DNA of 64,000 nt from Kiritimatiellaceae bacterium (GTDB lineage: Bacteria > Verrucomicrobiota > Kiritimatiellia > Kiritimatiellales > Tichowtungiaceae), in the NCBI GenBank assembly GCA_013141415.1, contig JABFQY010000003.1, positions 457,729 to 521,728 of the forward strand, in the 5' to 3' direction. The translations under genes were made by a program, and so were the position numbers. The notes beneath the pieces were generated by a model. It was not told the origin of the DNA. It did not search any database and was given only the letters and a program-made list of their open reading frames with translations. Shown piece by piece: positions 25,087 to 61,644 of this stretch (positions are counted from its first letter, which is position 1; every line of letters begins with the position of its first letter).

Positions 25087-25134
25087 GTAGGACAGGCTTC
25101 CAGCCTGTCTGGACAGGCAGGATGCCTGTCCTAC
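25087..25134. repeat. REPIN: two GTAG hairpins in inverted orientation
   Basis: GTAG at 25087 is followed by GACAGGCTTCCAGCCTGTC, then the mirror unit ends in CCTGTCCTAC at 25134. Both ends are GTAG feet facing outward as GTAG...CTAC. The right CTAC contains the TAG stop codon of murJ (25131-25133). The first half has the same hairpin as the ends of the xseA insertion. Confidence 0.85.
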
Positions 25135-26705: not shown

Positions 26706-26722
26706 AAAGTTTGTCTGATTTT

Positions 26723-26737
26723 CCAAAGTTTGGAACT
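26723..26737. promoter_or_regulatory. TTCCAA/TTGGAA palindrome in the murJ-lpxC-like divergent gap
   Basis: TTCCAAAGTTTGGAA is a near-perfect palindrome centred in the 99-base gap between two envelope genes. A TATAGA that could serve as -10 for the plus-strand gene lies shortly after it. Similar palindromes lie upstream of the MFS gene (6975-6990) and near nadD (51302-51316). Confidence 0.35.
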
Positions 26738-46670: not shown

Positions 46671-46701
46671 AGCTTTCTCCTTTTAAACCCCATTATGGAC
46701 T

Positions 46702-46792
46702 GCGGCGGCTTGCCGCCGCTTTCACAGGCGAAGCTTGCTTCGCCCGCTCACCGAAGCAAGCTTCGGTAACCAAAGCGCAGGCAAGCCTGCGC
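46702..46792. repeat. Cluster of four perfect short hairpins
   Basis: In 91 bases: GCGGCGGC/GCCGCCGC (46702-46719), GGCGAAG/CTTCGCC (46727-46744), CCGAAG/CTTCGG (46751-46766) and GCGCAGGC/GCCTGCGC (46775-46792). They lie between priA and the osmC-like gene. No GTAG foot is present, so they are a different palindromic family from the REPs elsewhere. Confidence 0.85.
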
Positions 46793-46806
46793 ACTCCAAA
46801 CCTTTT

Positions 46807-49704
46807 TCACAATAACGAAGTTGCATCCACATCCACCGTCACCTTAACCGTCTTCGGCAGTTTCATCATTCCGAACGCCGCGCGGATGGCGTCATTCATC
46901 GTTTTCGTCCGCGCCGCCCGCAACAGAATCTGCCAGCGGTATTCGCCGCGCATCCGGGAAATCGGCGCAGGGATGGCCGGTGAAAGTACAATTCCACCCG
47001 CCGCCGTTTTTTCTAAACATTGGAAAAGCTTCTCCGCCGTCGCTTCCACCTCGGCCTCGTTTTTGCCGCGCAGTGTAATGCAGGTCAAATGAGTATAAGG
47101 CGGATAACCCAGCTCTTTGCGGAAGGCCATCTCCTGTTCGCAGAAACCTTCAAAATCCATTCGCCGCGCGGCCTGTACCGCCGGATGGTGCGGCGTGTAG
47201 GTTTGCACGATCACCTCGCCAGCCGCCTCGCCGCGCCCGGCGCGGCCCGCTACCTGCGTCAGCAGTTGAAATACCCGCTCCCCGGCGCGGAAGTCGGCCA
47301 TGTGCAACGCGTGGTCAGGATTCACCACGCCGACCAGCGTGACGTTCGGAAAATCCAATCCTTTGGCGATCATCTGCGTGCCGATCAGAATATCGATTTT
47401 GCCGGTGCGGAATTTTGCCAGTACATCGCGGTGCGCATTCTTGCGGCGCATCGTGTCGGAATCCATCCGCTCGATCCGCGCTTTCGGAAACAGCTTTAAC
47501 ATCACTTCTTCAATTTTTTCCGTACCGGCGCCGCCGTGGCGGAACTTGTCGGACTTACACTCCGGACAGCGCACCGGCACCGGTTTTTCTTCGCCGCAGA
47601 TGTGGCAGACCAGCTTTGCCCGCGCCTTATGAAACGTCATGCCGACACTGCAATGCTCGCATTCCGCCACATAGCCGCAGTCAGGACAGATCAGCGACGA
47701 AGCGAATCCGCGCCGGTTCAGGAAAATCATCGTCTGTTCGGCGCGGTCAATCCGGATGCGGATGGCTTCGACCAGCTCGCGAGAAAACAGCACCGGCTTA
47801 CCTTCCCGCTCTGCCGCAATGCGCATGTCCACAATATGGATCGGCGGCATCCGGCGGTCGTCCACGCGGATCGGCAGTTCGACGTAGCGGTATTTGCCGC
47901 TCTTCGCATTGGCGTAGGATTCCAGCGCGGGCGTCGCCGTACCCAGCACGACGGCGCACTTTTCCATTCTGCCGCGCATCACGGCGGTGTCGCGGGCGCT
48001 GTAGCGCGGCACTTCGTCCTGCTTGTAGGTCGGCTCGTGCTCTTCGTCCACCACGATCAGGCCGAGATTATGAACCGGCGCAAACAGCGCCGAACGTGCG
48101 CCGACCACAATCTGCGCTTCGCCGGAGCGGATGCGGTGCCACTCGTCGTAGCGTTCGCCGTCGGACAGCGAGCTGTGCAGAACGGCCACCCGCTCCGGCT
48201 TATCGGCAAAGCGCGAGCGGAAACGGTCAACGGTCTGCGGCGTCAGCGCGATTTCAGGCACCAGTACAATCGCGCCTTTGCCCTGCTCCAGCGCATGGGA
48301 AATCGCCTGTAAATAAACTTCCGTCTTGCCGGAACCGGTCACGCCGTGAAGAAGCAATACCGGCGGATCGGTTTCGTCCATCGCTTCGACAATCTGTTTC
48401 AGTGCCACGGACTGCTGTTCCATCAGCGCCAGCGGTTCGGTCTTGAGCAGTTCAACGCCTTCGTGCGGATCGCGGTAAACCGACTCGTTGGAAATCGTCA
48501 CCAGGCCCTTTTTCTCCAGCGTTTTGATGGTTGCCGCAGAAACTTCCGCCGCAACCGTCAGCTCCATTAGGAGCATCGAACCGGCGCGTTGAAGAAGATC
48601 AATTATTTTTTGCTGTTTGGGAGTTAACGTAGACGCGACGCCCCCGTCGCGTTCTTCTCTCTTAAAAATGCTGTATGTCCCTGATGCAAGCCCTTTGGGG
48701 TTTTCTTCAATATACCGCCTGAACTTTTCCAGACTCTCCGGACTGCGCACGATATGGTCAAATGACCCCTTCTGCCAAACCGACTCAGACTGTCCTGTCA
48801 GTTTCTTGATCTTCCGGGCAGATATTGATTTCCACGCCTGAACAATCGCGGAAAGAGTGTGGTCTCCAAGAGGAGAGACCAAAACATGGACATGATTCGG
48901 CATAACAATATAACTTCGGAGATCATACTGCACACCCTGCTTTGCATACAGTGCATCAACAACAGGCTTGCGTAGTTCCGGTCTTTGAAAAACGCAGAAA
49001 CCAGATCCCTGATCAAGCCAGCGCTCGAAGCGTTCTGTAAAACAAGTTCGGTATGTCTGTTGCCACTCAGCTAAATGCGACGAGGGCGTCGCATCTACGT
49101 TGTCTTCTGTAGACACGACGCCCTCGTCGCGTCCTGCCGCTGGTTTAGGGTTTTCAGCAAGCCATTCATCCCGTTCCTTCTGCCACTGCTTCAGCTTTTC
49201 CTGCGGCAAAGAGTCAGCCAGCCGGAAAGTCACGAAATAGGTAGTGCCGTCCTGCCGCCAGTGCGAAAGGCTGCCGCCAGAAGAATGAGAAACAGCCAAG
49301 GATAAATCAAAACTGTTAAAACGCGACGAGGGCGTCGCGTCTACATTCAGAGAAACCGTCAGCTGTTTCTTGCCGCCACTTTCTTTGTTGCGGACAACGG
49401 CGGGAAGCAGAGTCCGCACGCAGGTTTCGAATGGTGCCAAATAGTAAGAAGACATCCAGCGCGCTAACTCCATGACCGATTCGGTAACCAGCGACTTTTC
49501 GCCCAGTACTTTACCGATGGGTTTGAGATCACCAAAAGCCGACTTATCCGCAAAACCGACCACGAAGCCGGTCACCGTCCGCGACCGGAACGGCACTTCG
49601 ACCCGCGAGCCGATCTCGACCAGCGGACGGAGCGGCTCGGGAATCAGATAGTCGAACTCACGGTCCAGCGAGAGGTCAACAGCGACTTTGGCAATGCGGT
49701 TCAT
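46807..49704 (-). CDS. priA: Primosomal helicase PriA with an in-frame transposase domain insertion
   Basis: 965 residues against about 730 for PriA. Residues 1-120 are the 3' DNA-end binding domain; residues from about 360 resume with the winged helix (TPKQQKIIDLL), Walker A GVTGSGKTE (residues 454-462), DEEH, four zinc CxxC pairs (CPDC, CEHC, CHIC, CPEC) and the C-terminal WRWQILL-type block. Residues 121-358 are a complete Y1 transposase domain of REP-associated type (HUH His271/His273, Tyr331), flanked by REP hairpins that are themselves translated. Removing them leaves 726 residues, a normal PriA. The frame has no stop. The ATG at 49704 gives the standard PriA start. Whether the fusion protein works or is processed is unknown. 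Confidence 0.95.
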   Translation of the reverse strand: MNRIAKVAVDLSLDREFDYLIPEPLRPLVEIGSRVEVPFRSRTVTGFVVGFADKSAFGDLKPIGKVLGEKSLVTESVMELARWMSSYYLAPFETCVRTLLPAVVRNKESGGKKQLTVSLNVDATPSSRFNSFDLSLAVSHSSGGSLSHWRQDGTTYFVTFRLADSLPQEKLKQWQKERDEWLAENPKPAAGRDEGVVSTEDNVDATPSSHLAEWQQTYRTCFTERFERWLDQGSGFCVFQRPELRKPVVDALYAKQGVQYDLRSYIVMPNHVHVLVSPLGDHTLSAIVQAWKSISARKIKKLTGQSESVWQKGSFDHIVRSPESLEKFRRYIEENPKGLASGTYSIFKREERDGGVASTLTPKQQKIIDLLQRAGSMLLMELTVAAEVSAATIKTLEKKGLVTISNESVYRDPHEGVELLKTEPLALMEQQSVALKQIVEAMDETDPPVLLLHGVTGSGKTEVYLQAISHALEQGKGAIVLVPEIALTPQTVDRFRSRFADKPERVAVLHSSLSDGERYDEWHRIRSGEAQIVVGARSALFAPVHNLGLIVVDEEHEPTYKQDEVPRYSARDTAVMRGRMEKCAVVLGTATPALESYANAKSGKYRYVELPIRVDDRRMPPIHIVDMRIAAEREGKPVLFSRELVEAIRIRIDRAEQTMIFLNRRGFASSLICPDCGYVAECEHCSVGMTFHKARAKLVCHICGEEKPVPVRCPECKSDKFRHGGAGTEKIEEVMLKLFPKARIERMDSDTMRRKNAHRDVLAKFRTGKIDILIGTQMIAKGLDFPNVTLVGVVNPDHALHMADFRAGERVFQLLTQVAGRAGRGEAAGEVIVQTYTPHHPAVQAARRMDFEGFCEQEMAFRKELGYPPYTHLTCITLRGKNEAEVEATAEKLFQCLEKTAAGGIVLSPAIPAPISRMRGEYRWQILLRAARTKTMNDAIRAAFGMMKLPKTVKVTVDVDATSLL
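48629..49344 (-). mobile_element. RAYT/REP element inserted in frame in priA
   Basis: Inverted REP hairpins bound the unit: on the gene strand it opens GTAGACGCGACGCCC at 49344 and closes with the mirror copy ending GTCTAC at 48629. Between them lies a transposase of the REP-associated tyrosine family: TYFVTFRLADSLP near the start, IVMPNHVHVLVSP with the HUH pair, and FRRYIEENP with the catalytic Tyr. The 716-base span is one short of a multiple of three. A further REPIN sits inside the transposase (49077-49131). The element is read as part of PriA. Confidence 0.92.
49077..49131. repeat. REPIN inside the priA-borne transposase
   Basis: Two hairpins of the ACGCGACG/CGTCGCG family, CGACGAGGGCGTCGC...CTAC (49077-49098) and GTAG...CCCTCGTCGCG (49109-49131), with a 10-base spacer. 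The GTAG feet face each other, opposite to the order at 51369. It adds about 18 translated residues to a loop where the xseA transposase has none. Confidence 0.85.
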
Positions 49705-49742
49705 TGGGAACAGAGAGTAGCCACGAAGAGCACGAAAAGACA

Positions 49743-49768
49743 CAAAAAATAAGCGGCCAAAGCCGCTT
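49743..49768 (-). terminator. Rho-independent terminator between yjbQ and priA
   Basis: AAGCGGC (49751-49757), loop CAAA and GCCGCTT (49762-49768), followed on the minus strand by a six-T run. It overlaps the yjbQ stop, so priA is expected to need its own promoter. Confidence 0.8.
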
Positions 49769-50183
49769 AATCTCCAATGATTTTCACGAGGACGCGCTTG
49801 TCGCGCAGGCCGTCGAATTCGCCGTAGAAAATCTGCTCCCACGGGCCGAAGTCGAGCTTTCCGCCGGTGACGGCGCAGACGACTTCGCGCCCCATGATCT
49901 GTCGTTTCAGGTGGGCATCGGCGTTGTCCTCAAACCCGTTGTGCGCGTACTGGCTATGTGGTTTTTCCGGCGCCAGCTTTTCGAGCCATTTGTCGAAATC
50001 CTGATGCAATCCGCCTTCGTCGTCGTTGATGAAAACGCTGGCGGTGATATGCATGGCATTGACGAGACAAAGTCCTTCTTTGATTCCGCTTTCGCGCAGA
50101 CACCCGTTCACTTCAGGAGTGATGTTGATAAAGGCGCGCCGACGCGGCGCTTTAAACCAGAGTTCTTTGCGATAGGATTTCAC
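49767..50183 (-). CDS. yjbQ: YjbQ/UPF0047 family protein
   Basis: 138 residues from a GTG with AGGAG upstream. Family motifs: [26 protein letters not shown] and [16 protein letters not shown], including the His/Glu cluster of the metal site. Family members have thiamine-phosphate synthase side activity but no settled role. It is the third gene of the nadD-rsfS-yjbQ operon and its stop overlaps a terminator. Confidence 0.9.
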
Positions 50184-50203
50184 TGGCCGCTCCTGTCAAC
50201 GGT

Positions 50204-50698
50204 TCAGGCTTTCGGCAGCGCGATACGCTTAGCGTCGTTCCAAAGTTTTTCGAGGTCGTATAGATTGCGCATCTCAAAACTGAAAACGTGAATCATCACG
50301 CCGTCGTAGTCCACGATGACCCAGCCGCTGTCGCCGGTTCCGGCGGCGCGGTAGCCTTCGTACTGCTCGTTTTTGCAGAGGCGCTGAAGACCGTCGCTCA
50401 ACGCCTTGAGGTGCGGAGCATTGGCGGCGGTGGCGATGATGAAATAATCATACAGACTGGACAACGGACGCATGTCGAGTATGGCGATATTCTCGGCCTT
50501 TCTGTCGTCCAGGAACTTGACCGCCTTCTGCACAACCTCCGACAATGGCCCCGCTTTGGGAGCCGCCTTCTTCGGCACGGCCTTGGCGGGTTTTACGACT
50601 GGCTTCGCCTTGGGGGCGGCCTTGGCAGCTTTTTTGACCGGTTTCGAGGCGACAGCTTTTTTAACCACCTTTTTCTTCGTCACTTTTTTCTCAGCCAT
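50204..50698 (-). CDS. rsfS: Ribosomal silencing factor RsfS with lysine/alanine-rich N-terminal tail
   Basis: 164 residues. The C-terminal 105 residues are RsfS (VVQKAVKFLDDRKAENIAILDM, YDYFIIATA, GVMIHVFSFEMRNLYDLEKLW), which binds L14 and blocks subunit joining in starvation. The first 55-60 residues are a repetitive Lys/Ala/Pro tail (PKKAAPKA, KPVKKAAKA) resembling histone H1 tails and absent from most RsfS proteins. The ATG at 50698 overlaps the end of nadD (ATGGCTGA), so the two are coupled. Confidence 0.93.
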   Translation of the reverse strand: MAEKKVTKKKVVKKAVASKPVKKAAKAAPKAKPVVKPAKAVPKKAAPKAGPLSEVVQKAVKFLDDRKAENIAILDMRPLSSLYDYFIIATAANAPHLKALSDGLQRLCKNEQYEGYRAAGTGDSGWVIVDYDGVMIHVFSFEMRNLYDLEKLWNDAKRIALPKA

Positions 50699-51311
50699 AT
50701 AATCCATGCTCCGCAATATACATTTCCACTTCTGGCGGCACAAGGTAGCGGATACTCAGCCCTTCCGCCAGCCTCATCCGGATATCAGAGGCGGAAATTT
50801 CGATCTCGTGAATCCGGATCAAACGCTCCATCAGCCGGGTTTTCCAAGGCTCGGAAAGCTTAATCTTTGCCGCAATCTGCGCCGAATCCTCACCGCCACG
50901 CGCAAACGGTACGATGGTACACATTTCGAGCAGTTGATCCACATTCCGCCACGCATGGAGAATGGTCAGCGAATCAAGCCCGACAATGAAAAACAGCTCC
51001 GCGCCGGGATGCTCGGACTGGACCTGCGTCATCGTATCGAAGGTGTAGGAAACCCCGCCGCGCTGAAGCTCCATATCCGAAACCTCAAAGCTCAGATTTC
51101 CCTCCGTGGCCAATTGAAGCATTTCGAACCGGTGACGCCCTTCGGCCAGCGCCTTGCCCTGCTTATGCGGCGGCACGGCGGCGGGCACAAAAATCAGACG
51201 GTCGAGCTCCAGCTGTTCTACGGCGTCCTGTGCAATCGTCAGATGTCCCATGTGCACCGGATCAAACGATCCGCCGAACACCCCGATCCGCTCTCTGTTT
51301 TTTCCAGACAT
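50691..51311 (-). CDS. nadD: Nicotinate-nucleotide adenylyltransferase
   Basis: 206 residues. GVFGGSFDPVHMGHL holds the nucleotidyltransferase HxGH motif and ISASDIRMRLAEG the ISxTxxR motif near the C-terminus. NadD makes deamido-NAD from nicotinate mononucleotide. It begins the nadD-rsfS operon commonly seen in bacteria. No ribosome-binding site is evident; the start is close to a phrase-like repeat that may hold the promoter. Confidence 0.95.
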   Translation of the reverse strand: MSGKNRERIGVFGGSFDPVHMGHLTIAQDAVEQLELDRLIFVPAAVPPHKQGKALAEGRHRFEMLQLATEGNLSFEVSDMELQRGGVSYTFDTMTQVQSEHPGAELFFIVGLDSLTILHAWRNVDQLLEMCTIVPFARGGEDSAQIAAKIKLSEPWKTRLMERLIRIHEIEISASDIRMRLAEGLSIRYLVPPEVEMYIAEHGLYG

Positions 51312-51315
51312 TGGA

Positions 51316-51352
51316 AAATTTTTACCACAGAAAACACAGAAAACACGGAAAA
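51316..51352 (-). promoter_or_regulatory. Phrase-like repeat upstream of nadD, possible promoter
   Basis: On the minus strand it reads TTCCGTGTTTTCTGTG followed by TTTTCTGTGGTAAAAAT, seven bases before the nadD ATG. A related phrase, TTTTCGTGCTCTTCGTGGC followed by TACTCT, precedes the priA start. TGTGGTAAAAAT could act as an extended -10, giving a very short or absent leader. Confidence 0.35.
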
Positions 51353-51368
51353 TCTAATGTTTGGAAAC

Positions 51369-51431
51369 GTAGACGCGACGCCCTCGTCGCGTTTCTTAAC
51401 TGGAACAACGCGACGAGGGCGTCGCGTCTAC
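51369..51431. repeat. REPIN of the priA-insert family in intergenic DNA
   Basis: GTAGACGCGACGCCC... (51369-51391) and its mirror ending GTCTAC (51409-51431), 17 bases apart. The orientation is the same as the two ends of the priA insertion, so this looks like a transposase-free (MITE-like) version of that element. It lies between nadD and the GH5 gene. Confidence 0.9.
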
Positions 51432-51549
51432 ATTCGGGAAAATCTTTACCAGCCTGCCGCGCCGTAGCCATACGAAGGCGGGCCGCCGCACTTGCCGCCG
51501 CGCCTGTCAACTGCTACAAGTCAGAGATTCTCAGAAAAGGAGCCAGCTC

Positions 51550-52554
51550 ATGCGGAAATTCATACTGCTGTTCATCCTGCTCGCCGCATCAGTTCACGCT
51601 GGGTCTTATCCCGGACTCAAAGTACAGGGGCGGTACCTTTACGACCCTGCCGGTGATCGGATTACCCTGCGCGGCGCCAATGCCATGATTGTCTTCTGGG
51701 ACCGCTACGGAGAAAACAATTATGCCGAACTCGCAAAGACCGGCGCCAACTGCTGCCGCATTTTCTGGTCGACGGGACACGAGTCGGAACCCGTCATGCC
51801 GGCATCGGATCTGGACAAGACGCTGAGTAATTGCATCAAAAACAAAATGATCCCGATCGTGAGCGTATGGGATGCTACCGGTGACTGGAGCAAATTCCAG
51901 AAGTGCGTGGATTACTGGACCCGCCCGGACGTTTCGGCGGTTTTGAAAAAACATGAAAAATATCTTCTGCTGAACATTGGCAATGAAGTCGGCACGGTCG
52001 TCAGCAATGAAGTGTTCCGCGAAAATTATAAAACCGCCGTAAACCAAATCCGGAAAGCCGGCATTCACGTTCCGCTGATCATTGATGCCGACGGCTACGG
52101 CCGTAATGCAAAAACCCTGCTGGAAAACGGACCGTATCTGCTGGCCGAAGACCCCGATCAAAACCTCATTTTCTCGTGGCACCTGTGGGATCCGATGAAG
52201 TACGGCGGCGGCTCCACCGATTCAATCCGCAAGTTCATCGACGGCTCAATTGAAAAAGACATCTGCTTCATCGTCGGCGAGTTTGGCCCCACCGAATTCG
52301 GCGACCAGCCCGCCTCCGGCAAAGTGAACTGGGAATACCTGATTGAATACGCCGACAAAAAAGATATCGGCTGGCTGGCCTGGGTATGGAACTTTTCGGA
52401 CCGCCACTCCATCGTCAACCCGGCCACCGGAAAATTCGGCGACTGGACCAACTCGCCCTGGGGCGAACAGGTCGCCGTCGCCAGTCCTTACAGCATAAAA
52501 AACACAGCCAAGAAAACACAGTGGCTGGAGAACGGCGTCAAAGGCGCGAAATGA
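51550..52554 (+). CDS. Secreted glycoside hydrolase family 5-like enzyme
   Basis: 334 residues with a signal peptide (MRKFILLFILLAASVHA). The (beta/alpha)8 enzyme shows LLLNIGNEVG with the acid/base Glu around residue 142, WHLWDP, and FIVGEFGPTEFG with the nucleophile Glu around 239, as in GH5 mannanases and endoglucanases. AAAGGAG precedes the ATG. It probably degrades external beta-mannan or beta-glucan. A GH5 subfamily cannot be assigned by eye. Confidence 0.85.
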   Translation: MRKFILLFILLAASVHAGSYPGLKVQGRYLYDPAGDRITLRGANAMIVFWDRYGENNYAELAKTGANCCRIFWSTGHESEPVMPASDLDKTLSNCIKNKMIPIVSVWDATGDWSKFQKCVDYWTRPDVSAVLKKHEKYLLLNIGNEVGTVVSNEVFRENYKTAVNQIRKAGIHVPLIIDADGYGRNAKTLLENGPYLLAEDPDQNLIFSWHLWDPMKYGGGSTDSIRKFIDGSIEKDICFIVGEFGPTEFGDQPASGKVNWEYLIEYADKKDIGWLAWVWNFSDRHSIVNPATGKFGDWTNSPWGEQVAVASPYSIKNTAKKTQWLENGVKGAK

Positions 52555-52566
52555 ATTCCTTCTAGC

Positions 52567-52583
52567 GTGGAAGCGGCTTCCAC
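52567..52583. repeat. Small perfect hairpin between the GH5 gene and gatB
   Basis: GTGGAAG-CGG-CTTCCAC. It lies 13 bases past the GH5 stop and 32 before the gatB stop, and may help end both convergent transcripts although no strong T-run follows. Confidence 0.45.
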
Positions 52584-52614
52584 TTTGAGCTCTTGGCGGC
52601 TTTGCGCAAGGACT

Positions 52615-54039
52615 TCAGGCGTCCAGCTTCTTCTTCAGCATGGCGATGACGGTTGGCGGATTGGCTTTGCCTTTGCTCTGTTTCATGACGTAGCCCATGA
52701 GGGAATTAATAGAAGCCGGATTGCCCGCTTTATAATCCGCGACGGCTTTGGCGTTTCCGGCGATGGCTTCTTCGGCCCATTTTTCGAGCGCGCTGTCGTC
52801 GTTGACCTGCGCCATGCATTTGGCTTCGACCACTGCTTTCGGGTCGCCGCCTTCGGCAAAAAGAATTTCAATCAGCTCATTGGCCGCACTGGAACTAATG
52901 GTTCCGCCGCCGACCAGATCAGCGACCTGCGCCAGCGTTTCCGGTGTCAACTGGCTTTCGTCAACGCTGATGCTTTTCTCGGTAGCGAGGCTGGCGACTT
53001 TTCCCATCATGTAGTTTGAAACCAGCTTGTACTGCTTGGTTTTGTGGCAGGCGGCGTCGAAGAAATCCGAGATGTGTTTTTCGGCGGTGAGGACTTTGGC
53101 GTCGTAGTCGGGCAGGCCAAGTTCTTTGACGTAGCGTTCGCGCCGCTGAACCGGCAGTTCCGGCAGTTCGGATTTCCACTGAGCAATCTGCGCGGCGGAA
53201 ATTTCGACGGGAAGCAGATCGGGCTCGGGGAAATAGCGGTAGTCGTGCGCGTCTTCTTTGGTGCGCTGGGAAAACGTTTCGCCGCGGTCGGAGTCGTAGC
53301 CGCGCGTTTCCTGAACCACTTTGCCGCCATTTTCGATCAATTCGATCTGGCGCGCGATTTCATACTTGATAGCCTCGACGATGAAACTGGGCGAATTCAT
53401 GTTTTTAATTTCGACCTTGGCGCCGAGCTTTTCCTGTCCGACCGGACGGACACTGACGTTGACGTCGGAGCGCATGTGCCCTTTTTCGAGGTCGCAGTCG
53501 GAAATGCCACCGTATTCCATGATCAGCTTGAGGGCCTGAATATAAGCGAAAGCGTCGTCAGCCGAATGCATGCACGGCGTGGAGACAATTTCCATCAACG
53601 CGGTACCGGCACGGTTATAGTCGATCAGACTGCCGCTGGCGGCGTGCGTATTCTTGGCGGCGTTTTCTTCCTGATGAATCCGCTCCAAGGTGAAAGTTTT
53701 CAGCTCGCCGTTCACTTCCGTCACAATCTTTCCGCCGAGGCAGAGCGGCCGGTCGGCCTGCGTGATCTGGTAGTTTTTGGACATGTCGGGATAAAAATAG
53801 TTTTTGCGATCCCACTTGGAGTGCGGATTGATTTCGCAACCGAGCAGCAGTCCCGCCTTGCAGCAGAGTTCGATGGCTCTGGCGTTGAGCACCGGAAGCG
53901 CGCCAGGATAGCCGAGGCAGACCGGACACACATTAGTGTTCGGTTCCGCGCCGTACTCGTGCTTACAGCCGCAGAACATTTTCGTCCGCGTCTTCTGCAT
54001 CACATGGGTCTCAAGTCCAATACAGGCTTCGTATTTCAT
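52615..54039 (-). CDS. gatB: Aspartyl/glutamyl-tRNA amidotransferase subunit B
   Basis: 474 residues. Signatures: CIGLETHVMQKTRTKMFC, CPVCLGYPGALPVLN, SKWDRKNYFYPDMSKNYQI and the C-terminal YqeY/GatB tail. GatB activates the misacylated tRNA for amidation with ammonia from GatA. The ATG at 54039 was preferred over a TTG two codons earlier. Last gene of gatC-gatA-gatB. Confidence 0.98.
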   Translation of the reverse strand: MKYEACIGLETHVMQKTRTKMFCGCKHEYGAEPNTNVCPVCLGYPGALPVLNARAIELCCKAGLLLGCEINPHSKWDRKNYFYPDMSKNYQITQADRPLCLGGKIVTEVNGELKTFTLERIHQEENAAKNTHAASGSLIDYNRAGTALMEIVSTPCMHSADDAFAYIQALKLIMEYGGISDCDLEKGHMRSDVNVSVRPVGQEKLGAKVEIKNMNSPSFIVEAIKYEIARQIELIENGGKVVQETRGYDSDRGETFSQRTKEDAHDYRYFPEPDLLPVEISAAQIAQWKSELPELPVQRRERYVKELGLPDYDAKVLTAEKHISDFFDAACHKTKQYKLVSNYMMGKVASLATEKSISVDESQLTPETLAQVADLVGGGTISSSAANELIEILFAEGGDPKAVVEAKCMAQVNDDSALEKWAEEAIAGNAKAVADYKAGNPASINSLMGYVMKQSKGKANPPTVIAMLKKKLDA

Positions 54040-54049
54040 AATCAATTTT

Positions 54050-55513
54050 CTAAAATTTCGGTTTCTGGCGGTGCCATTCCGTCGTCTGTTCGTAGGCGTG
54101 GCCGACCTTGAGGATGCTCGGCTCCATAAACGAGTCGCCGAGAATCTGGAGCCCGATCGGCAGACCCGCTTTGGAAAATCCGCACGGGACGCTCAGCCCG
54201 CAGATACCCGCAAGATTGACCGGCGTGGTCAGAATATCGTCGAGATACATCTTGAGCGGATCGCTGGTCTTCTCGCCGATTTTATACGCCGGTGTCGGAG
54301 TGACCGGCGCGAGAATCGCGTCGCAATGAGCAGATGCGGCTCTAAAATCATTATGAATCAGCGTACGGACTTTCTGGGCGCGCAGGTAATAGGCATCGTA
54401 GTAGCCGCTCGACAGCACATAGGTGCCGAGAATGATGCGGCGTTTGACCTCGGGGCCGAAACCGGCGGCGCGGGTTTTGCCGTAGAGTTCAATCGGATCG
54501 GCCCCGTCTTTGCGCAGTCCGTAACGGATGCCGTCGAAGCGCGCGAGGTTGGCGGAAGCTTCCGCTGTGGCGATGATGTAATAGACCGCAATCGCATACT
54601 TCGAGTGCGGCAGGCTGATGTCCACAATCTTCGCGCCAAGCTTTTTACAATGTTCGATCGCGTTGCGGACCGCTGTTTCGACTTCCGGATCCATCCCTTC
54701 GACGAAATATTCCTTCGGCAGGCCGAGCTGCATCCCCTTCAAACTGTGGTCATCGGTCAGATCTTTTGAATAGTCTGGAACGGGCAAATCGACCGTGGTG
54801 GAATCCATAGGATCTTTACCGGCCATTGCGGTGAGCAGAATGGCGGCATCCCTGACCGTCTTGGTGATCGGACCGATCTGGTCGAGCGATGAGGCGAAAG
54901 CGGTCAGGCCATAGCGGGAAATCATGCCGTAGGTCGGCTTAAGGCCGACGCATCCGCAGAAGGCGGCGGGCTGGCGGATCGATCCGCCGGTATCGGAGCC
55001 GAGTGCGGCAATCGCTTCATCCGCGGCGACGCTGGCGGCCGAACCGCCGGAGGAACCGCCGGGAACGTGGTCGGTATTCCACGGATTACGGGTCTTTTTG
55101 AAAGCCGAGCTTTCCGTGCTCGAACCCATGGCGAACTCGTCCATGTTGACGCGACCGAGAAAAACAGCGCCCGCTTCGCGCAGTTTGGCGATGGCCGTGG
55201 CGTCGTACGGCGCAACGTAACCCTCGATAATCTTCGACGAACAGGTGCAAGGCTGACCTTTGACGTTCAGCAAGTCTTTGATCGCCAGCGGAATGCCAAG
55301 TAGCGCGCCCTTTTTACCAGCGGCACGCGCCTTGTCGGCGGCTTCGGCCTGTGCCAGTGCGGCGGCGCGGTCGATGGTCAGGTAGGCACCGATCTTTCCG
55401 TCATGCGCGTCAATCGCGGCCAGCACGTCGTTGACGATTTGCACCGAAGTGCATTTTCCCTGCTCCAGCAGGTCGGAAAGTTCAGAAATAGTTTTTGTGT
55501 TTAGTCCGGCCAT
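54050..55513 (-). CDS. gatA: Aspartyl/glutamyl-tRNA amidotransferase subunit A
   Basis: 487 residues. The amidase signature is complete: Lys in [11 protein letters not shown], and [16 protein letters not shown] with [14 protein letters not shown] supplying the cis and nucleophile serines. GatA hydrolyses glutamine and channels ammonia to GatB. Starts three bases after the gatC stop. Confidence 0.98.
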
Positions 55514-55515
55514 GA

Positions 55516-55806
55516 TTATTCCATAATTTTCGGGACGAGAATCTGCCCGTCGCGGGCGGCGGGGGCGTTGGCGATAACGGCGTCGTGATCAAGTGAAGTC
55601 CGGGGAGTATCTTCGCGAAGCACATTGACCAGCGCCATGGCGTGCGCCGTCGGCTCGACGTTCGACACGTCGAGTTCGCCAAGCTGCTCGACGTAGGTGA
55701 GCACTTGATCGAGCTGTCCCTGAAACAGTTCCGCCTCGCCGTCGGCAAGGTGAATCCGCGCCAGATGCGCGATATAGGAAACGTCCATATGTGTTGAGTC
55801 GGCCAT
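55516..55806 (-). CDS. gatC: Aspartyl/glutamyl-tRNA amidotransferase subunit C
   Basis: 96 residues, typical Gat[13 protein letters not shown] at the N-terminus, then [16 protein letters not shown] and VEPTAHAM, ending [11 protein letters not shown]. It ties GatA to GatB. The ATG at 55806 has TTTGGAGAA upstream and gives the family length; the longer upstream reading would overlap the promoter. Confidence 0.95.
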
Positions 55807-55828
55807 GCTTTTCTCCAAATGAGGCCGA

Positions 55829-55857
55829 ACTATAGACAGGCCGCCGAAACGGGGCAA
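55829..55857 (-). promoter_or_regulatory. Promoter of gatCAB
   Basis: On the minus strand: TTGCCC (55852-55857), 17-base spacer, TATAGT (55829-55834). It lies 23 bases upstream of the gatC ATG, leaving room for the ribosome-binding site. Confidence 0.6.
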
Positions 55858-55929
55858 GCGGCAACTGCGTTGCGGCCTGCTTGATCCGAAGGACTGGCAA
55901 ACTTTGAGAAATACACAAACAAGAAGTAA

Positions 55930-56012
55930 AGCCGGAACTTAGGGCGTACTCGCCCGTAGATCCGGCTTGTAAGCCTGAAAGCCGGACCCACGGCTTCGCC
56001 TGAGTTCCGGCT
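55930..56012. repeat. Paired GCCGGA hairpins with a GTAG foot
   Basis: AGCCGGAACT at 55930 and AGTTCCGGCT at 56003-56012 close the unit. Inside are two hairpins with identical AGCCGGA/TCCGGCT feet (55930-55967 and 55980-56012), the first enclosing GGGCG/CGCCC. GTAG at 55956 is followed by a TCCGGCTT/AAGCCGGA stem, the same grammar as the other REPs. A further REP family. Confidence 0.7.
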
Positions 56013-56036
56013 ATACCGACAGCTCAATCGCGAAAT

Positions 56037-56078
56037 GCCCCAACAATTCATCCGCAACGCTGTTGCCTGCGTTGGGGC
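56037..56078 (+). other. Nested stem-loop before the M42 peptidase gene
   Basis: GCCCCAAC (56037-56044) pairs with GTTGGGGC (56071-56078), enclosing a second stem GCAAC/GTTGC (56054-56066). A six-T run follows at 56085-56090, about 45 bases before the ATG at 56133. It could be a terminator for incoming plus-strand transcription or an attenuator; no plus-strand gene precedes it. Confidence 0.5.
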
Positions 56079-56132
56079 TTGCTGTTTTTTCCAATCCTTG
56101 AAAAACTCCCCGCCCAATTCAGAGAGGACTCC

Positions 56133-57203
56133 ATGAACAAAACATCGAAACAATTTCTCGCGGATATGATCAACGCCATCAGCCCGTCCGGCTATGAACA
56201 CTGCGCGGCGGCCGTCTGGAAAGAATACGCCAAGCCATTCGCCGACCGGGTTGAAACCGACGTTCACGGCAATTCACATGCGGTGATCAATTCCGGCGGA
56301 AAAGTCAAAGTGATGCTGGCCGGTCACTACGACGAAATCGGCTTCCTGATTTCCCATATCGACGACAAAGGGTTTCTCTGGATTGCCCCGATCGGCGGCT
56401 GGGATCCGCAGATCGCGCAGGGCCAGCGGGTGGATATCATCGGCAACGGCGGCAAAGTGGTGCGCGGAGCGGTCGGCAAAATCGCCATTCACCTGCAGGA
56501 AGCTGAACAGCGCAAAAAGGTTTCCGAAATCAAAGACCTCTGGGTCGATATCGGCGTGAAGAACAAAAAAGAAGCAGAAGCGCTGGTCAGTATCGGCGAC
56601 CCTCTGGTCATCCAATACGGCTTTGAAGAACTGCAAAACGGCCGCGCCGTCGGTCGCGCCTTTGACGACCGGGCCGGAGCCTTCGCGATTCTGGAGGCGG
56701 GCCGCCTGCTCGCCAAAATGAGCACACAGTGCGAAGTGCATGTCGTGGCGACCGTTCAGGAAGAAATCGGCCTGCGCGGGGCGCGGACGGCGGCGTTCGG
56801 TATCGAACCGGATGTCGGTATTGCTGTGGATGTCACCTTCGCCACCGACCATCCGAACATCGGCAACGTACTGCATCAGGAAGGTAAAGTGGAACTCGAC
56901 GGCGGACCGGTCGTCACCCGCGGCCCGAACATCAATCACAAGCTGTTCGACCTGATTATTAAAACCGCCAAAGAAGAAAAAATCCCGGTGCAGATCGTCG
57001 CTGAAGCGCGCGGCACCGGAACCGACGCCAACGCCATTCAACTTAACCGTGCCGGTGTCGCCACCGCGCTCATCAGCATTCCGCTGCGCTACATGCACAG
57101 TCCGTGCGAACTGCTGAGTCTCGCCGATCTGGAAGCTGTTTCTAAACTGCTGGCCGCCGTGGTCGCTAAAATCACTCCGCGCACCAACTTCATTCCGTTC
57201 TAA
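56133..57203 (+). CDS. M42 family metallopeptidase (glutamyl aminopeptidase-like)
   Basis: 356 residues. Metal-site motifs include AGHYDEIGFLIS with the His-x-Asp pair, FDDRAGAFAILEA, the catalytic TVQEEIGLRGAR (Glu-Glu) and DVTFATDHP. M42 enzymes are cytosolic, dodecameric aminopeptidases. GAGAGGA precedes the ATG at 56133. The trmB gene begins immediately after its stop. Confidence 0.93.
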   Translation: MNKTSKQFLADMINAISPSGYEHCAAAVWKEYAKPFADRVETDVHGNSHAVINSGGKVKVMLAGHYDEIGFLISHIDDKGFLWIAPIGGWDPQIAQGQRVDIIGNGGKVVRGAVGKIAIHLQEAEQRKKVSEIKDLWVDIGVKNKKEAEALVSIGDPLVIQYGFEELQNGRAVGRAFDDRAGAFAILEAGRLLAKMSTQCEVHVVATVQEEIGLRGARTAAFGIEPDVGIAVDVTFATDHPNIGNVLHQEGKVELDGGPVVTRGPNINHKLFDLIIKTAKEEKIPVQIVAEARGTGTDANAIQLNRAGVATALISIPLRYMHSPCELLSLADLEAVSKLLAAVVAKITPRTNFIPF

Positions 57204-57204
57204 A

Positions 57205-57795
57205 ATGAGCGCCCCCGACACTCTGCGTATTTTTCCGGAACAGTGGCTAAACCCGATTGATTTCCGGAACAGCTTCGATCAGCCGGAACGCCCGTTCGAA
57301 ATCGACCTCGGCTGCGGCAAAGGCCGGTTCCTGCTGGCGCGCGCGCGCAAGTTTACGGAAACCAATATTCTCGGAATCGACCGCCTGATGAATCGTATCA
57401 AGCGGCTTGATAAAAAAATCGTGCGGCACGGTCTGTTCAACGCCCGCGTCCTGCGCGGCGACGGTTATTACACCGTCACGTATCTCGTGCCGCCGGAAAG
57501 CGTGGACACCTATTACGTTTTCTATCCCGATCCGTGGCCGAAAGGAAAGCACCACCACAACCGCATCTTCAACGAACTGTTCATGGATGCCATCGCACGC
57601 ACGCTGAAGCCCGGCGGAAAACTCCACGCCTCAACCGACCACCTGCCCTACTTTCAGGAAATCTGCAAACTGATTAAAGCCGACAGCCGCTTCGAAGAAA
57701 CTGAAACCTTCGTTCCGTCCGAGGATGAAGTGTCCGATTTTGAACTGATCTTCGCCCACAAAACACCCGGCCGCTGTTCGTTCGTCCGGAAATGA
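57205..57795 (+). CDS. trmB: tRNA (guanine-N7)-methyltransferase TrmB
   Basis: 196 residues. EIDLGCGKGRFLL is the SAM-binding motif, and VFYPDPWPKGKHHHNRIFN is the TrmB-specific substrate loop. It makes m7G46 in tRNA. It begins one base after the M42 stop, so the two are probably cotranscribed. Confidence 0.96.
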   Translation: MSAPDTLRIFPEQWLNPIDFRNSFDQPERPFEIDLGCGKGRFLLARARKFTETNILGIDRLMNRIKRLDKKIVRHGLFNARVLRGDGYYTVTYLVPPESVDTYYVFYPDPWPKGKHHHNRIFNELFMDAIARTLKPGGKLHASTDHLPYFQEICKLIKADSRFEETETFVPSEDEVSDFELIFAHKTPGRCSFVRK

Positions 57796-57807
57796 CGAAG
57801 GAAAGCG

Positions 57808-58005
57808 TTAATAATGCGGCGGGCGGTCGTGGCCGCCGATGTCGTTTGATTCGGAGCTGGCGGCGAGTTTTTCTTCGAGGAGTTCAACCCGGGCCGTTAG
57901 CCGCTTGACCTCAAGTTGTTGCTGGTACATCTCCGCGCTAAGATCCTCCAGCATCCGGCTCTGATCCGAATAAAGCATTTCCAACTTGGTCAGCCGATTT
58001 TCCAT
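57808..58005 (-). CDS. slyX: SlyX family protein
   Basis: 65 residues: a heptad-rich coiled coil (LTKLEMLYSDQSRMLEDLSA and following) ending in RPPHY, the family's characteristic C-terminal PPHY. Function unknown. Located just downstream of ppa on the same strand with a 4-base gap. Confidence 0.88.
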   Translation of the reverse strand: MENRLTKLEMLYSDQSRMLEDLSAEMYQQQLEVKRLTARVELLEEKLAASSESNDIGGHDRPPHY

Positions 58006-58009
58006 ACGA

Positions 58010-58621
58010 TCAGCCGCCGTAGGTTTCTTCGTAGTCGGCCTGCGCGGCTTTGATCACTTCTTTGGCCCGATCGGCACCATAGAGTTCGATCACCTGCACA
58101 TTGGCTTCGCCGCCAGCGGGACGTTTGTAGGTTTCAAAATAGTGGAGCAGGCGGTCGAGCAGAACCTTGCGAACCTGATCGACACTGTTGACGTGCGACC
58201 AGAACTGATCTTCGTGCAGGACAGCAATGATTTTATCGTCAGCCTCGCCGTGATCGACCATCTGGACTCCGCCAATGACGCGGGCGTGCAGGATGACTTC
58301 GCCACGGTTAATCGGCCGTTCGGTGATAACACAGACATCCAGCGGGTCGCCGTCGCCGCGCTCTGAGGTGGGGGACAGTTTTTTCACCCGCGCGCCGCAA
58401 TAGGTTTTCGGAATGAAGCCGTAAAGGGTCGGCGGCATCGACGAAGTCAGCTGAGGGCGGTCAACCAGAAGATAGCCGGTGGTTTTGTCCACTTCGTACT
58501 TCACCGAGTCAAACGGCGTCATTTCGATATAGGCATTGACGACATCGGGGGCCTGTTCGCCAATATCAAGACCATGCCACGGATGCGGGCGCCAGCGGTA
58601 GAAAGTTTGTGGAAAGCTCAT
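58010..58621 (-). CDS. ppa: Inorganic pyrophosphatase, family I
   Basis: 203 residues. The catalytic DGDPLDVCV (Asp-x-Asp-Pro-x-Asp) and [10 protein letters not shown] identify family I pyrophosphatase; KYEVDKTTG holds the Glu-x-x-Lys contact. It hydrolyses pyrophosphate to pull biosynthesis forward. It is somewhat longer than the E. coli enzyme at both ends. Confidence 0.94.
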
Positions 58622-58718
58622 GGTTTAGACATTCGTAAATCCACCTGTTTTTGGCGAGTACATAGTTACAGGATAAAAATAAAGTGCCCCTGTCCGCCTC
58701 TTATGGCATGGTGTGCGC

Positions 58719-59489
58719 ATGAAAATCCTCTTTACAGGCGATATGGTCGGCAGTGCGGGTCGGCAGGTTTTTCAGCGTGTGACCGACCGGCTGCGCGCCG
58801 AAGGCCGGATCGATCTCGTGATCGCTAACGCCGAGAATGCCGCCGGAGGACGCGGGCCTTCGCCGGAAATCGTCGAGGCGCTTTTCGCCGCCGGAGCCGC
58901 CGCGCTAACGCTCGGCGACCACGCATGGGACGATAAAAACCTGACCAGCCTACTGGAAACCGAAACACGACTGATCCGTCCGGCGAATTTTCCGCCCGCC
59001 GCCGCAGGCCGCGGAATGACAACCATCGAAACCGACGAAGGGCCGATCTGCATTATCTCGCTGATCGGGCGCGTTTTTCTAGATCCGGCCGACTGCCCGT
59101 TCCGCGCCGCCGACCGGCTGATCGGCATGAGCAAAGCCAAAACCATTCTGATTGATTTCCACGCCGAGGCGACCTCGGAAAAAATCGCGCTGGGCCGCTA
59201 CCTCGACGGACGCGTCACCGCCCTGCTCGGAACGCACACTCACGTTCAGACGTCGGACGAAAACATCCTGCCGAACGGCACGGCTTATATCACCGACCTC
59301 GGTATGACCGGCCCGAAAGATTCCGTGATCGGCCGCGAAGTGGAGCCGGTTATTCAGCGCTTTATCACCGGCATGCCGCAAAAGTTTGATACGTCAAATA
59401 AAGATCCGGCGCTCGAAGGCGTCATTCTGGATATCGATATCAAAACCGGCAAGGCCCGCTCGATTGAACGGATTCGCGAAAGAGCCTGA
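58719..59489 (+). CDS. ymdB: YmdB family metallophosphoesterase
   Basis: 256 residues. MKILFTGDMVGSAGR at the N-terminus, IANAENAAGG, LGDHAWDDK and LLGTHTHVQTSDE supply the di-metal ligands of the YmdB family, 2',3'-cyclic nucleotide phosphodiesterases. The ATG at 58719 was preferred to an upstream in-frame GTG. Its stop overlaps the xseA start (TGATG). Confidence 0.93.
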   Translation: MKILFTGDMVGSAGRQVFQRVTDRLRAEGRIDLVIANAENAAGGRGPSPEIVEALFAAGAAALTLGDHAWDDKNLTSLLETETRLIRPANFPPAAAGRGMTTIETDEGPICIISLIGRVFLDPADCPFRAADRLIGMSKAKTILIDFHAEATSEKIALGRYLDGRVTALLGTHTHVQTSDENILPNGTAYITDLGMTGPKDSVIGREVEPVIQRFITGMPQKFDTSNKDPALEGVILDIDIKTGKARSIERIRERA

Positions 59490-61411
59490 TGGAAGAAACG
59501 CGGAAAATTTACAGCGTCGCCGAACTCAACCGCGCCGCGCGGTTTACGCTCGAAAACGGCATCGGCGAAGTGTGGGTCGAGGGCGAAATCTCGCGCCTGA
59601 CACGCCAGTCGAGCGGTCATTGGTATTTCACTCTCAAGGACGAAGCCGCCGCCGTTTCCTGCGCCATGTTTAAACAGAATAACGCCGCCGCGACGTTCGA
59701 GCCGAAGGACGGACTTAAGGTGCGTGTTCTCGCACAAGCCAGCCTCTACGAGCCGCGCGGAAGTTATCAGCTCATTGTCCGCAAGATGGAAGAAGCCGGT
59801 AAAGGCTCGCTTCAGGAGCAGTTCGAAAAACTGAAAGCCAAGCTGTCCGCCGAAGGGCTGTTCGACGCCAGCCGTAAAAAACCGCTACCGCTTCTGCCGC
59901 AAAAAATCGGCGTGGTCACCTCGCCCACCGGCGCGGCGATCCGCGATATCATCAACGTGCTGACACGGCGGTTTCCGAATATTGAAATCCTGCTCGCGCC
60001 GGTTACCGTGCAAGGCGAAGGCGCGGCGGAAAAAATTGCCGCCGCAATTGATTATTTGAATACATACAACAGGAAAGTAGGACAGGCTTCCAGCCTGTCC
60101 ACAGAGAGTGAGAAGTTCTTCACCCCATGGCTCCCTGTCGATATAGAAAAGCGTCATCTACCGCATTGGAATCAGGACAATGCCTCCTACTTTGTCACCT
60201 TCCGGCTGGCTGATTCACTGCCGCATGAAAAACTCCAGCTCTGGCAACAGGAGCGCATCCAATGGCTAAAGTCGCATGACGAACCTTATTCTAAAAACGA
60301 ACTAACGGAATATTCGAAACTGTTCAGCGAACGGATTAATCAATGGCTGGACGTCGGTTCGGGATCCTGTCTGTTGGCCGAGAAGCAAAACGCGTCCGTT
60401 GTAGAAGCCGCAATGCAACATTTCGACGGCAATCGCTACCGGCTGGGCTCATACGTGATAATGGCCAACCATGTTCACGTCCTTGTCTCACCACTGCCCG
60501 GCAATAACTTGGCAGATATTCTTCATTCGTGGAAATCGTTCACAGCAAATCGGATTAATGAACAAACCGGGCGACGCGGTGCCGTATGGCAGGATGAATC
60601 ATACGACCACATTGTGCGAAGCCCGGAACAACTGTCTTTTTATAACGACTACATTCGGAAAAATCTCAATCAGTCGAAAGAAACGGCTGTGGCACGAATA
60701 GACAGGCTGGAAGCCTGTCCTACTTTGCCGATCGATCTCATTATTGTCGGGCGCGGCGGCGGAAGTATTGAAGACCTTTGGGCGTTCAACGAAGAAGTCG
60801 TGGCGCGAGCCATCGCCGCATCGCGGATTCCGGTCATCTCGGCGGTCGGCCACGAAATTGATTTTACGATCAGCGATTTCGTCGCCGATGTGCGCGCGCC
60901 AACACCATCAGCGGCGGCCGAGCTGGCCGTGCCGGTCAAAGCCGAACTGGAAATGCAGATTGTGCGGTTGGCCGCGCGGCTCGGCGGTTCACTGCAAAAT
61001 CAGGTTCATATTCTGCGTGAGCGGATTCCCGGATTTCGTCAGACCATGGTTCATGCACTGACGGACGGGCTCCGGTTACGACAGCAAAAGGTGGATGAAA
61101 CCAGCCGAACGCTTGCCGAGTGTTTGAAGAATGCGGTAACAATTCAAAAACAACGCCTGCCCGGATTGCAACAGACTATGGATCACCGGATGGAAAGTGC
61201 GGTGGCAGAACGGAAACAGAATCTGCGCAGGCTGGAATCTCAACTGCGTGCATTAAGCCCGCTGGCCGTGCTGGATCGCGGTTACAGCCTGACACAGACG
61301 GAAGACGGCACCGTTGTGCGTGATATCGCGCAGATCAGAGCAGGCGGAACAGTTCGTACGCGATTGGCAAAAGGGACGTTCATTTCAGAAGTCAAAAAGA
61401 AGGAGGCATGA
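59489..61411 (+). CDS. xseA: Exonuclease VII large subunit with an in-frame transposase domain insertion
   Basis: 640 residues against roughly 400-460 for XseA. Residues 1-100 are the OB-fold (YSVAELNRAARFTLE, GEISRLTRQSSGHWYFTLKD); the catalytic domain begins near 130 (KIGVVTSPTGAAIRDI) and is broken after TVQGEGAAEKIAAAIDYL. It resumes at residue 413 with LPIDLIIVGRGGGSIEDLWAFN, followed by the coiled-coil C-terminus. Residues 197-412 are a complete REP-associated Y1 transposase domain (HUH His328/His330, Tyr388). Without the insert the length is about 424 residues, normal for XseA. The insertion lies in a loop between a helix and the next strand of the catalytic fold. The whole frame is open. 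Confidence 0.95.
   Translation: MEETRKIYSVAELNRAARFTLENGIGEVWVEGEISRLTRQSSGHWYFTLKDEAAAVSCAMFKQNNAAATFEPKDGLKVRVLAQASLYEPRGSYQLIVRKMEEAGKGSLQEQFEKLKAKLSAEGLFDASRKKPLPLLPQKIGVVTSPTGAAIRDIINVLTRRFPNIEILLAPVTVQGEGAAEKIAAAIDYLNTYNRKVGQASSLSTESEKFFTPWLPVDIEKRHLPHWNQDNASYFVTFRLADSLPHEKLQLWQQERIQWLKSHDEPYSKNELTEYSKLFSERINQWLDVGSGSCLLAEKQNASVVEAAMQHFDGNRYRLGSYVIMANHVHVLVSPLPGNNLADILHSWKSFTANRINEQTGRRGAVWQDESYDHIVRSPEQLSFYNDYIRKNLNQSKETAVARIDRLEACPTLPIDLIIVGRGGGSIEDLWAFNEEVVARAIAASRIPVISAVGHEIDFTISDFVADVRAPTPSAAAELAVPVKAELEMQIVRLAARLGGSLQNQVHILRERIPGFRQTMVHALTDGLRLRQQKVDETSRTLAECLKNAVTIQKQRLPGLQQTMDHRMESAVAERKQNLRRLESQLRALSPLAVLDRGYSLTQTEDGTVVRDIAQIRAGGTVRTRLAKGTFISEVKKKEA
60077..60723 (+). mobile_element. 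RAYT/REP element inserted in frame in xseA
   Basis: The unit opens GTAGGACAGGCTTCC at 60077 and closes with the inverted copy ending GCCTGTCCTAC at 60723. Between lies a REP-associated tyrosine transposase: SYFVTFRLADSLP, VIMANHVHVLVSP with the HUH pair, VWQDESYDHIVRSPEQ and YNDYIRKN with the catalytic Tyr. The 647-base span is one short of a multiple of three, as in the priA unit. Both hairpins are translated within XseA. The transposase is intact. Confidence 0.93.
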
Positions 61412-61644
61412 GTATGGCCGAAAAAACGGTAGATTTTGAAAAATCGCTCGAACGGCTCGAAGCCATTGTTGAAGAAATGGAAGGCGGTGACCTTTCGCTT
61501 GAACAGATGATCAAGCATTTCGAGGAAGGCTCTAAGCTGGTTACACTTTGCTCCGGCAAACTCAACGAGGTGGAGCAGAAGATCGAGAAGCTGGTGAAAA
61601 AAGGCGGCGTATTATCTGCCGAACCGTTCGACCCGGATAAATAA
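61408..61644 (+). CDS. xseB: Exonuclease VII small subunit
   Basis: 78 residues: FEKSLERLEAIVEEMEGGDLSLE is the XseB motif, followed by a heptad helix. It starts within the xseA stop (ATGA), so the subunits are coupled. It binds XseA to form the single-strand-specific exonuclease. Confidence 0.96.
   Translation: MSMAEKTVDFEKSLERLEAIVEEMEGGDLSLEQMIKHFEEGSKLVTLCSGKLNEVEQKIEKLVKKGGVLSAEPFDPDK

Follow-up and report, generated by a model that had tools for sequence, protein, structure and literature searches.

In-frame RAYT genes flanked by REP palindromes inside priA, xseA and other bacterial host genes

Results

The priA locus and its insert

The window, i.e., the whole stretch of DNA that was analysed, covers 64,000 nt of contig JABFQY010000003.1 (assembly GCA_013141415.1) of a Kiritimatiellaceae bacterium with a genome size of 2.2 Mb, and the features described below are collected in Table 1. 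The priA open reading frame is uninterrupted over its full length, and a whole-genome search showed that it is the single priA of this Kiritimatiellota genome. Its product contains all Pfam domains of PriA and, in addition, a Y1_Tnp domain at residues 258-335. The fusion as a whole passed the NCBIfam PriA equivalog model with 894 bits against a cut-off of 813, and it shows the features that define a PriA, namely the 3' DNA-binding domain, the helicase, the Zn ribbon, the C-terminal domain and the full-length equivalog score. In the alignment to solved PriA structures, residues 4-106 correspond to the 3' DNA-binding domain and residues 361-960 to the remainder, and the insert lies between chain residues 106 and 135 of the solved protein, i.e., in the linker between the 3' DNA-binding and winged-helix domains.

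An earlier note, made from the sequence alone, had claimed that a RAYT is inserted in this linker, that the insert spans 48629-49344, that the HUH histidines (271 and 273) and Tyr331 are intact, and that PriA has its normal length once the insert is set aside. All four claims held: the location by the Pfam domains and the alignment to solved PriA, the coordinates by the exact GTAG...CTAC ends of two inverted REPs, the active site by an alignment of 40 sequences and by relatives, and the length by the domain hits, the structure alignment and the equivalog score. The flanking REPs as a unit, the nested REP pair and the xseA case were absent from that note and are added here.

Table 1. Positions of the in-frame RAYT fusions, their REPs and related features in the window
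Feature	Position	Strand	Remarks
priA::RAYT fusion ORF	46810-49704	minus	965 aa; stop codon 46807-46809
REP-RAYT-REP element in priA	48629-49344		716 bp, GTAG...CTAC; boundary agrees with relatives
Left-end REP (5' in gene), GTAGACGCGACGCCCTCGTCGCG	49322-49344	minus	Read as NVDATPSSR; DNA hairpin z -4.3
Right-end REP (3' in gene), inverted copy	48629-48651	plus	93% complementary over 28 nt
Nested inverted REP pair (REPIN)	49076-49131		In frame inside RAYT; low-confidence loop in model
RAYT catalytic core in PriA	48697-49269	minus	Residues 146-336; modelled pLDDT ~90-97
HUH motif codons H271-V272-H273	48886-48894	minus	Histidines invariant in alignment
Catalytic Tyr331 codon	48712-48714	minus	Alignments of relatives
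Solitary REP pair, PriA-RAYT family	51369-51431		Outside annotated genes
xseA::RAYT fusion ORF	59489-61411	plus	640 aa; second in-frame case; xseA 469 bits, cut-off 180
REP-RAYT-REP element in xseA	60077-60723		GTAGGACAGG...CCTGTCCTAC
RAYT core inside XseA	60155-60667	plus	49% identical to PriA-embedded RAYT
Back-to-back REP pair, xseA family	25087-25134		At end of MurJ-like gene
MurJ-like gene	25131-26726	minus	

The RAYT domain model matched the E. coli TnpA_REP bound to a REP hairpin (4er8; E 1.4e-5, TMt 0.56), and in the 40 aligned sequences H271 and H273 are invariant and Tyr331 is nearly invariant. Against the named NCBIfam RAYT model the PriA-embedded RAYT scored 60 bits, which is under the cut-off of 80. 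Structure prediction of the 965-residue protein, which the earlier note had proposed as a check, gave a confident RAYT and a PriA part of low confidence; the model is silent on the PriA fold because only two PriA sequences were in the AF2 alignment for the whole fusion, and viral contigs, scanned for more, yielded no PriA. That the PriA part works is likely, as argued from its conservation.

REP ends of the priA element

The GTAG feet of the two inverted REPs fall at 49344 and 48629, with 0 expected by chance. This REP family has 68 genomic copies in the 2.2 Mb (0 in the reversed-pattern control). REPs form footed hairpins with z values of -4 to -9, about -4 for the family of the priA element. 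Nested in-frame REPs inside the RAYT are also present in genomes G003 and G004, and in the window copy the nested pair lies upstream of the HUH motif and not between HUH and Tyr. Several PriA-family REPs of the same genome were also seen in long open frames of 423-925 aa (eleven loci), which may point to REP-only in-frame insertions in other genes.

Further in-frame cases in the same genome

In xseA, the second in-frame case, the insertion is located inside a domain, between AIxYLN and IDLMIVGRGGG, and the element is flanked by a different REP family with 34 genomic copies (reversed-pattern control, 0). A B12-binding radical-SAM gene in another part of the genome contains a third in-frame RAYT with its own third REP family (17 copies; reversed-pattern control, 0), whose foot is GTAT/GTAC, while the other families are GT[AG]G-footed. 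The REPs of all three RAYTs are scattered over the genome, one family per RAYT.

Two side observations concern these families. The TAG stop codon of the MurJ-like gene is supplied by the GTAG foot of the back-to-back xseA-family REP pair at its end. In the order, the B12-radical-SAM gene has two RAYT insertion sites, one between the B12 and SAM domains and one near the C-terminus.

Distribution over host genes and phyla

Within the genus (14 genomes), well-scoring RAYT relatives (E < 1e-40) lie in frames of 545-1080 aa with one exception, a decaying copy in a 368-aa frame with a TAG; in the genus, this RAYT lineage is therefore found only in frame inside other ORFs, apart from that copy. Across the order, most matches belong to frames 446-1198 aa long, and free-standing genes (207-289 aa) are the minority. 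The hosts in the order are PriA, XseA, the CCA-adding enzyme, B12-radical SAM, HypF, mevalonate diphosphate decarboxylase (mvaD) and a methyltransferase. Beyond the order they include CarB, LeuRS (leuS), a second class I tRNA synthetase, MetH, adenosine deaminase, an oxidoreductase pair and restriction enzymes of the Eco57I, MmeI and HsdR types, in Verrucomicrobiota, Bacteroidota, Ignavibacteriales, Planctomycetota and Pseudomonadota. A phylum survey of 388 genomes detected the RAYT family in 76, and about 50 of the 128 matches are in frames >420 aa; some of these may lack a real host. The priA insert is not an isolated insertion at a domain boundary, as it appeared in the earlier note, but one example of a class that recurs at fixed sites in many genes, in some cases within a domain.

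Restriction enzymes were frequent RAYT hosts outside the order, and in several phyla Eco57I-type methylase/restriction proteins have a RAYT inside them, following the first ~500 residues (seven loci). At six loci the RAYT instead forms the C-terminal tail of a TatD, MgsA/RarA, fumarase-like or Fic-like protein; such tail cases (TatD, MgsA/RarA, fumarase-like, FabA-like and Fic-like) were kept separate from true internal insertions. Four candidate hosts were discarded because their frames were spurious extensions that lacked host homology.

Active site, selection and translation

All 75 embedded in-frame RAYT cores retain the two histidines, the Trp and the Asn (Tyr+4), and 74 of the 75 retain the Tyr. 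Pairwise dN/dS values of RAYT are mostly 0.05-0.16 and close to those of the hosts. RAYT is under purifying selection, with the reservation that several dS values are saturated, and clocks are weak because its synonymous sites are near saturation. The earlier note had named the loss of catalytic residues in close relatives, pointing to a decaying gene, as its refutation, and this was not borne out by the conserved residues and the purifying selection. Some copies are nevertheless inactive or decaying. In the priA RAYT of G003 the catalytic Tyr is replaced by His with the HUH motif intact, and this copy is still in frame and probably dead; the hypF of G008 has a TAG upstream of the remaining RAYT part and is a decaying fusion. 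For the priA pair of G003 and G004, dS was 2.46 in the RAYT and 0.43 in the surrounding host gene, which suggests a separate history of the insert.

An ATG upstream of the core occurs in 21 of 64 embedded copies as compared to 43 of 49 standalone copies, and the PriA, XseA and radical-SAM copies of the window's own genome have no ATG or GTG ahead of the core within the insert; therefore the transposase is probably made within the host protein. About two thirds of the embedded copies have a GTG or ATG within 48 codons around the core start, and internal initiation remains possible for some of them.

Alleles at one site

At the priA site all alleles follow directly after KKQLxVSL. The empty site, which the earlier note had proposed to look for in PriA of relatives, was found in G015, G025 and G034. 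G001 and G012 have a degenerate or single palindrome (in G012 with GTGGAAGCGGCAGGGATGCCGCTTCCAC), G007, G035 and others have a REP pair only, and the remaining alleles carry RAYT lineage I or II. The xseA site likewise occurs as empty (YLN-TRDD-IDL), with a short degenerate REP remnant (G008), with REP pairs (G026, G035 and G039) and with two RAYT types. It is possible that the scar and REP-only alleles are independent REP insertions instead of losses.

Lineages and exchange between hosts

The tree of 132 RAYT cores groups by host gene, requiring 19 changes as compared to 66 after shuffling, and none of 200 shuffles was as low. The xseA RAYTs form one clade (100/88) and those of the CCA-adding enzyme another (97/82), and the priA RAYTs split into two clades, with both families represented in each. 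On the PriA host tree, the states lineage I, lineage II and none need 13 changes against 13.6 in shuffled trees, i.e., they are scattered as if random, and close hosts can carry different RAYTs in priA, as in G000 and G013 with a host identity of 0.89 and a RAYT identity of 0.56. Near-identical REPs accompany priA lineage I in both families.

For xseA, the hosts of family f2 form a clade at 100/100 in the host tree, and the RAYTs of two f2 genomes, G036 and G037, are placed with those of family f1 (99/99). G000 and G037 are 0.71 identical in RAYT and 0.52 in host, and G036 and G041 are 0.57 identical in RAYT and 0.79 in host. The AU test rejected a single f2 RAYT clade (p = 0.033), which is modest support, and the grouping had been noticed before testing. 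In the xseA of G036 and G037 the f1-type RAYT is accompanied by f1-type REPs, and both xseA RAYT types share exact nucleotide ends, AATAAA/GTAGG...CCTAC/TTTACCGAT (slashes mark the junctions). Our results show that the whole REP-RAYT-REP unit has been exchanged between families at an identical xseA junction, with the modest support of the AU test kept in mind.

Discussion

The reading that we prefer is that of an in-frame, non-splicing passenger element, REP-RAYT-REP, which moves among orthologous sites; we consider it likely, with a probability of roughly 0.74, and no experiment shows transposition, cleavage or expression. What is established is the in-frame residence in dozens of genomes and many genes, the purifying selection, the intact active sites, the lack of an upstream start codon in many copies, the host-gene-specific lineages, the patchy occupancy and, in xseA, the exchange of the whole unit at one and the same junction. 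The mechanism itself is proposed. The transposase would have no gene of its own and would be translated solely within the host protein, as an internal domain, from the promoter, start and stop of the host, and the flanking GTAG- or GTGG-footed palindromes would be read in frame as short linkers. Without splicing, the HUH/Tyr nuclease would keep its active site within the host protein, and the position of the element in a linker or loop would let the host protein stay functional. Since the host gene is needed, a frameshift, a nonsense mutation or a sloppy deletion of the element would be selected against, and this selection against disruptive loss would hold the element in place. Insertions that keep the frame in tolerant loops would survive, and the needed host gene would then protect the element. 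Loss would be confined to in-frame deletions with a palindrome scar or a REP pair left behind, and gain or exchange would take place at the same site in the orthologous genes of other species. The fusion protein would bind GTAG-footed hairpins as single strands, as TnpA_REP does, and would mobilise itself and REP pairs. That the fusion protein itself cuts the REP hairpins and drives the movement is inferred, as cleavage has no biochemical data, and loss by deletion between the end REPs is likewise an inference. A bolder reading would see here a distinct class of obligately intragenic, translated, non-splicing HUH transposons homing to fixed codons of essential genes, with the host protein as the transposase carrier and essentiality as the protection from loss; we hold it possible, though somewhat less likely than not.

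Several other explanations need to be weighed. The RAYT could be a co-opted domain, that is, a domesticated accessory nuclease, maintained vertically and of benefit to the host, for example at forks via PriA or on ssDNA via XseA. The purifying selection and intact active sites fit with this, PriA and XseA both work on forks or ssDNA, and RAYTs in general act like housekeeping genes (PMC8266576). However, occupied sites are spread over the host tree in a patchy, random fashion, sister species have a different RAYT or none at the same site, and the hosts, including the CCA-adding enzyme, HypF, CarB, LeuRS, MetH and restriction enzymes, have no common function, so that co-option is unlikely. Ordinary homologous recombination of priA or xseA alleles between species, without transposition, could account for the patchiness within the genus, but the xseA hosts of the two families are only 0.50-0.55 identical at C-terminal residues and remain separate clades, and the switch of the xseA RAYT and its REPs falls at the GTAG foot; this explanation we also regard as improbable.

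Even less probable are two further alternatives. A plain relic would be a neutral in-frame insertion, a decaying chance survivor that stays open only for the frame of the host. The Tyr to His change in G003, the TAG in the G008 hypF and the solitary palindrome scars would agree with it, but the low dN/dS (with saturating dS) and the HUH motif intact in every embedded core do not, because a constraint on the frame only would not preserve amino acids; for the family as a whole the relic is already largely refuted. A spliced or bypassed insert (intein, intron or translational bypass) would yield a mature PriA without the insert, and the fixed-site, same-gene and patchy pattern is typical of inteins and group I introns. 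Against it, host, REPs and RAYT share one continuous frame, no intein domain was present among the Pfam hits, the only ~25-50 residues between host and RAYT core are too short for one, and an Rfam intron/ribozyme search of 46700-61500 (14.8 kb) gave no match.

The passenger element bears directly on the question of RAYT mobility. TnpA_REP acts on single-stranded hairpins with cleavage between C and T, RAYTs are seen as domesticated, single-copy transposases, and evidence of tnpA_REP mobility has been stated to be lacking (all PMC8266576). The host-gene lineages, the patchy occupancy and the exchange between families at an identical junction make this mobility testable. The embedded RAYTs also provide natural multi-site evidence of the places at which a domain of ~240 residues is tolerated in helicases, tRNA enzymes and nucleases, and they explain a class of chimeric annotations thrown out by surveys, as the survey of Quentin 2018 dropped unexpectedly long proteins as fusions or annotation errors (PMC6006769).

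Among known systems, RAYT/TnpA_REP subclass 2.4 (Quentin 2018, PMC6006769; RAYT group 4 of Bertels) and its REPtrons share with the window RAYT the HUH and Tyr core, the NH[IFV]H, WQ and YIxNNP motifs, the GT[AG]G-footed long or double-foot REPs and in-frame REPs nested in the tnpA_REP gene, which were already known in this subclass (PMC6006769). Subclass 2.4 has been described as free-standing genes, whereas the RAYTs of the present study form internal parts of other proteins. Intragenic in-frame REPs (Di Nocera 2013, PMC3733652) and the Rickettsia palindromic elements cited in that paper are, like here, in-frame palindromes in housekeeping or repair genes, tolerated in linkers or loops, but they were not reported to include a transposase gene within the host ORF, and here an autonomous transposase is embedded. 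In-frame REPs in genes are thus already known, but the open literature searched, subscription papers being outside the scope, gave no earlier report of whole RAYT genes residing within the reading frame of a host gene. IStrons are generally known as an insertion sequence combined with a group I intron (they are noted in PMC3984707), and like the present elements they bear a transposase and spare the host gene; they splice at the RNA level, whereas the priA/xseA region has no RNA family match. Inteins and homing endonuclease introns have in common with the embedded RAYTs the fixed sites in conserved genes, the site-specific lineages, the patchy occupancy, the movement between species and an internal nuclease. 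The difference is that the insert described here has no splicing domain, intron or ribozyme, and its nuclease is HUH/Y1 and not a homing endonuclease. Besides RNA splicing by introns and protein splicing by inteins, staying in the mature protein would thus be a third way of living inside an essential gene.
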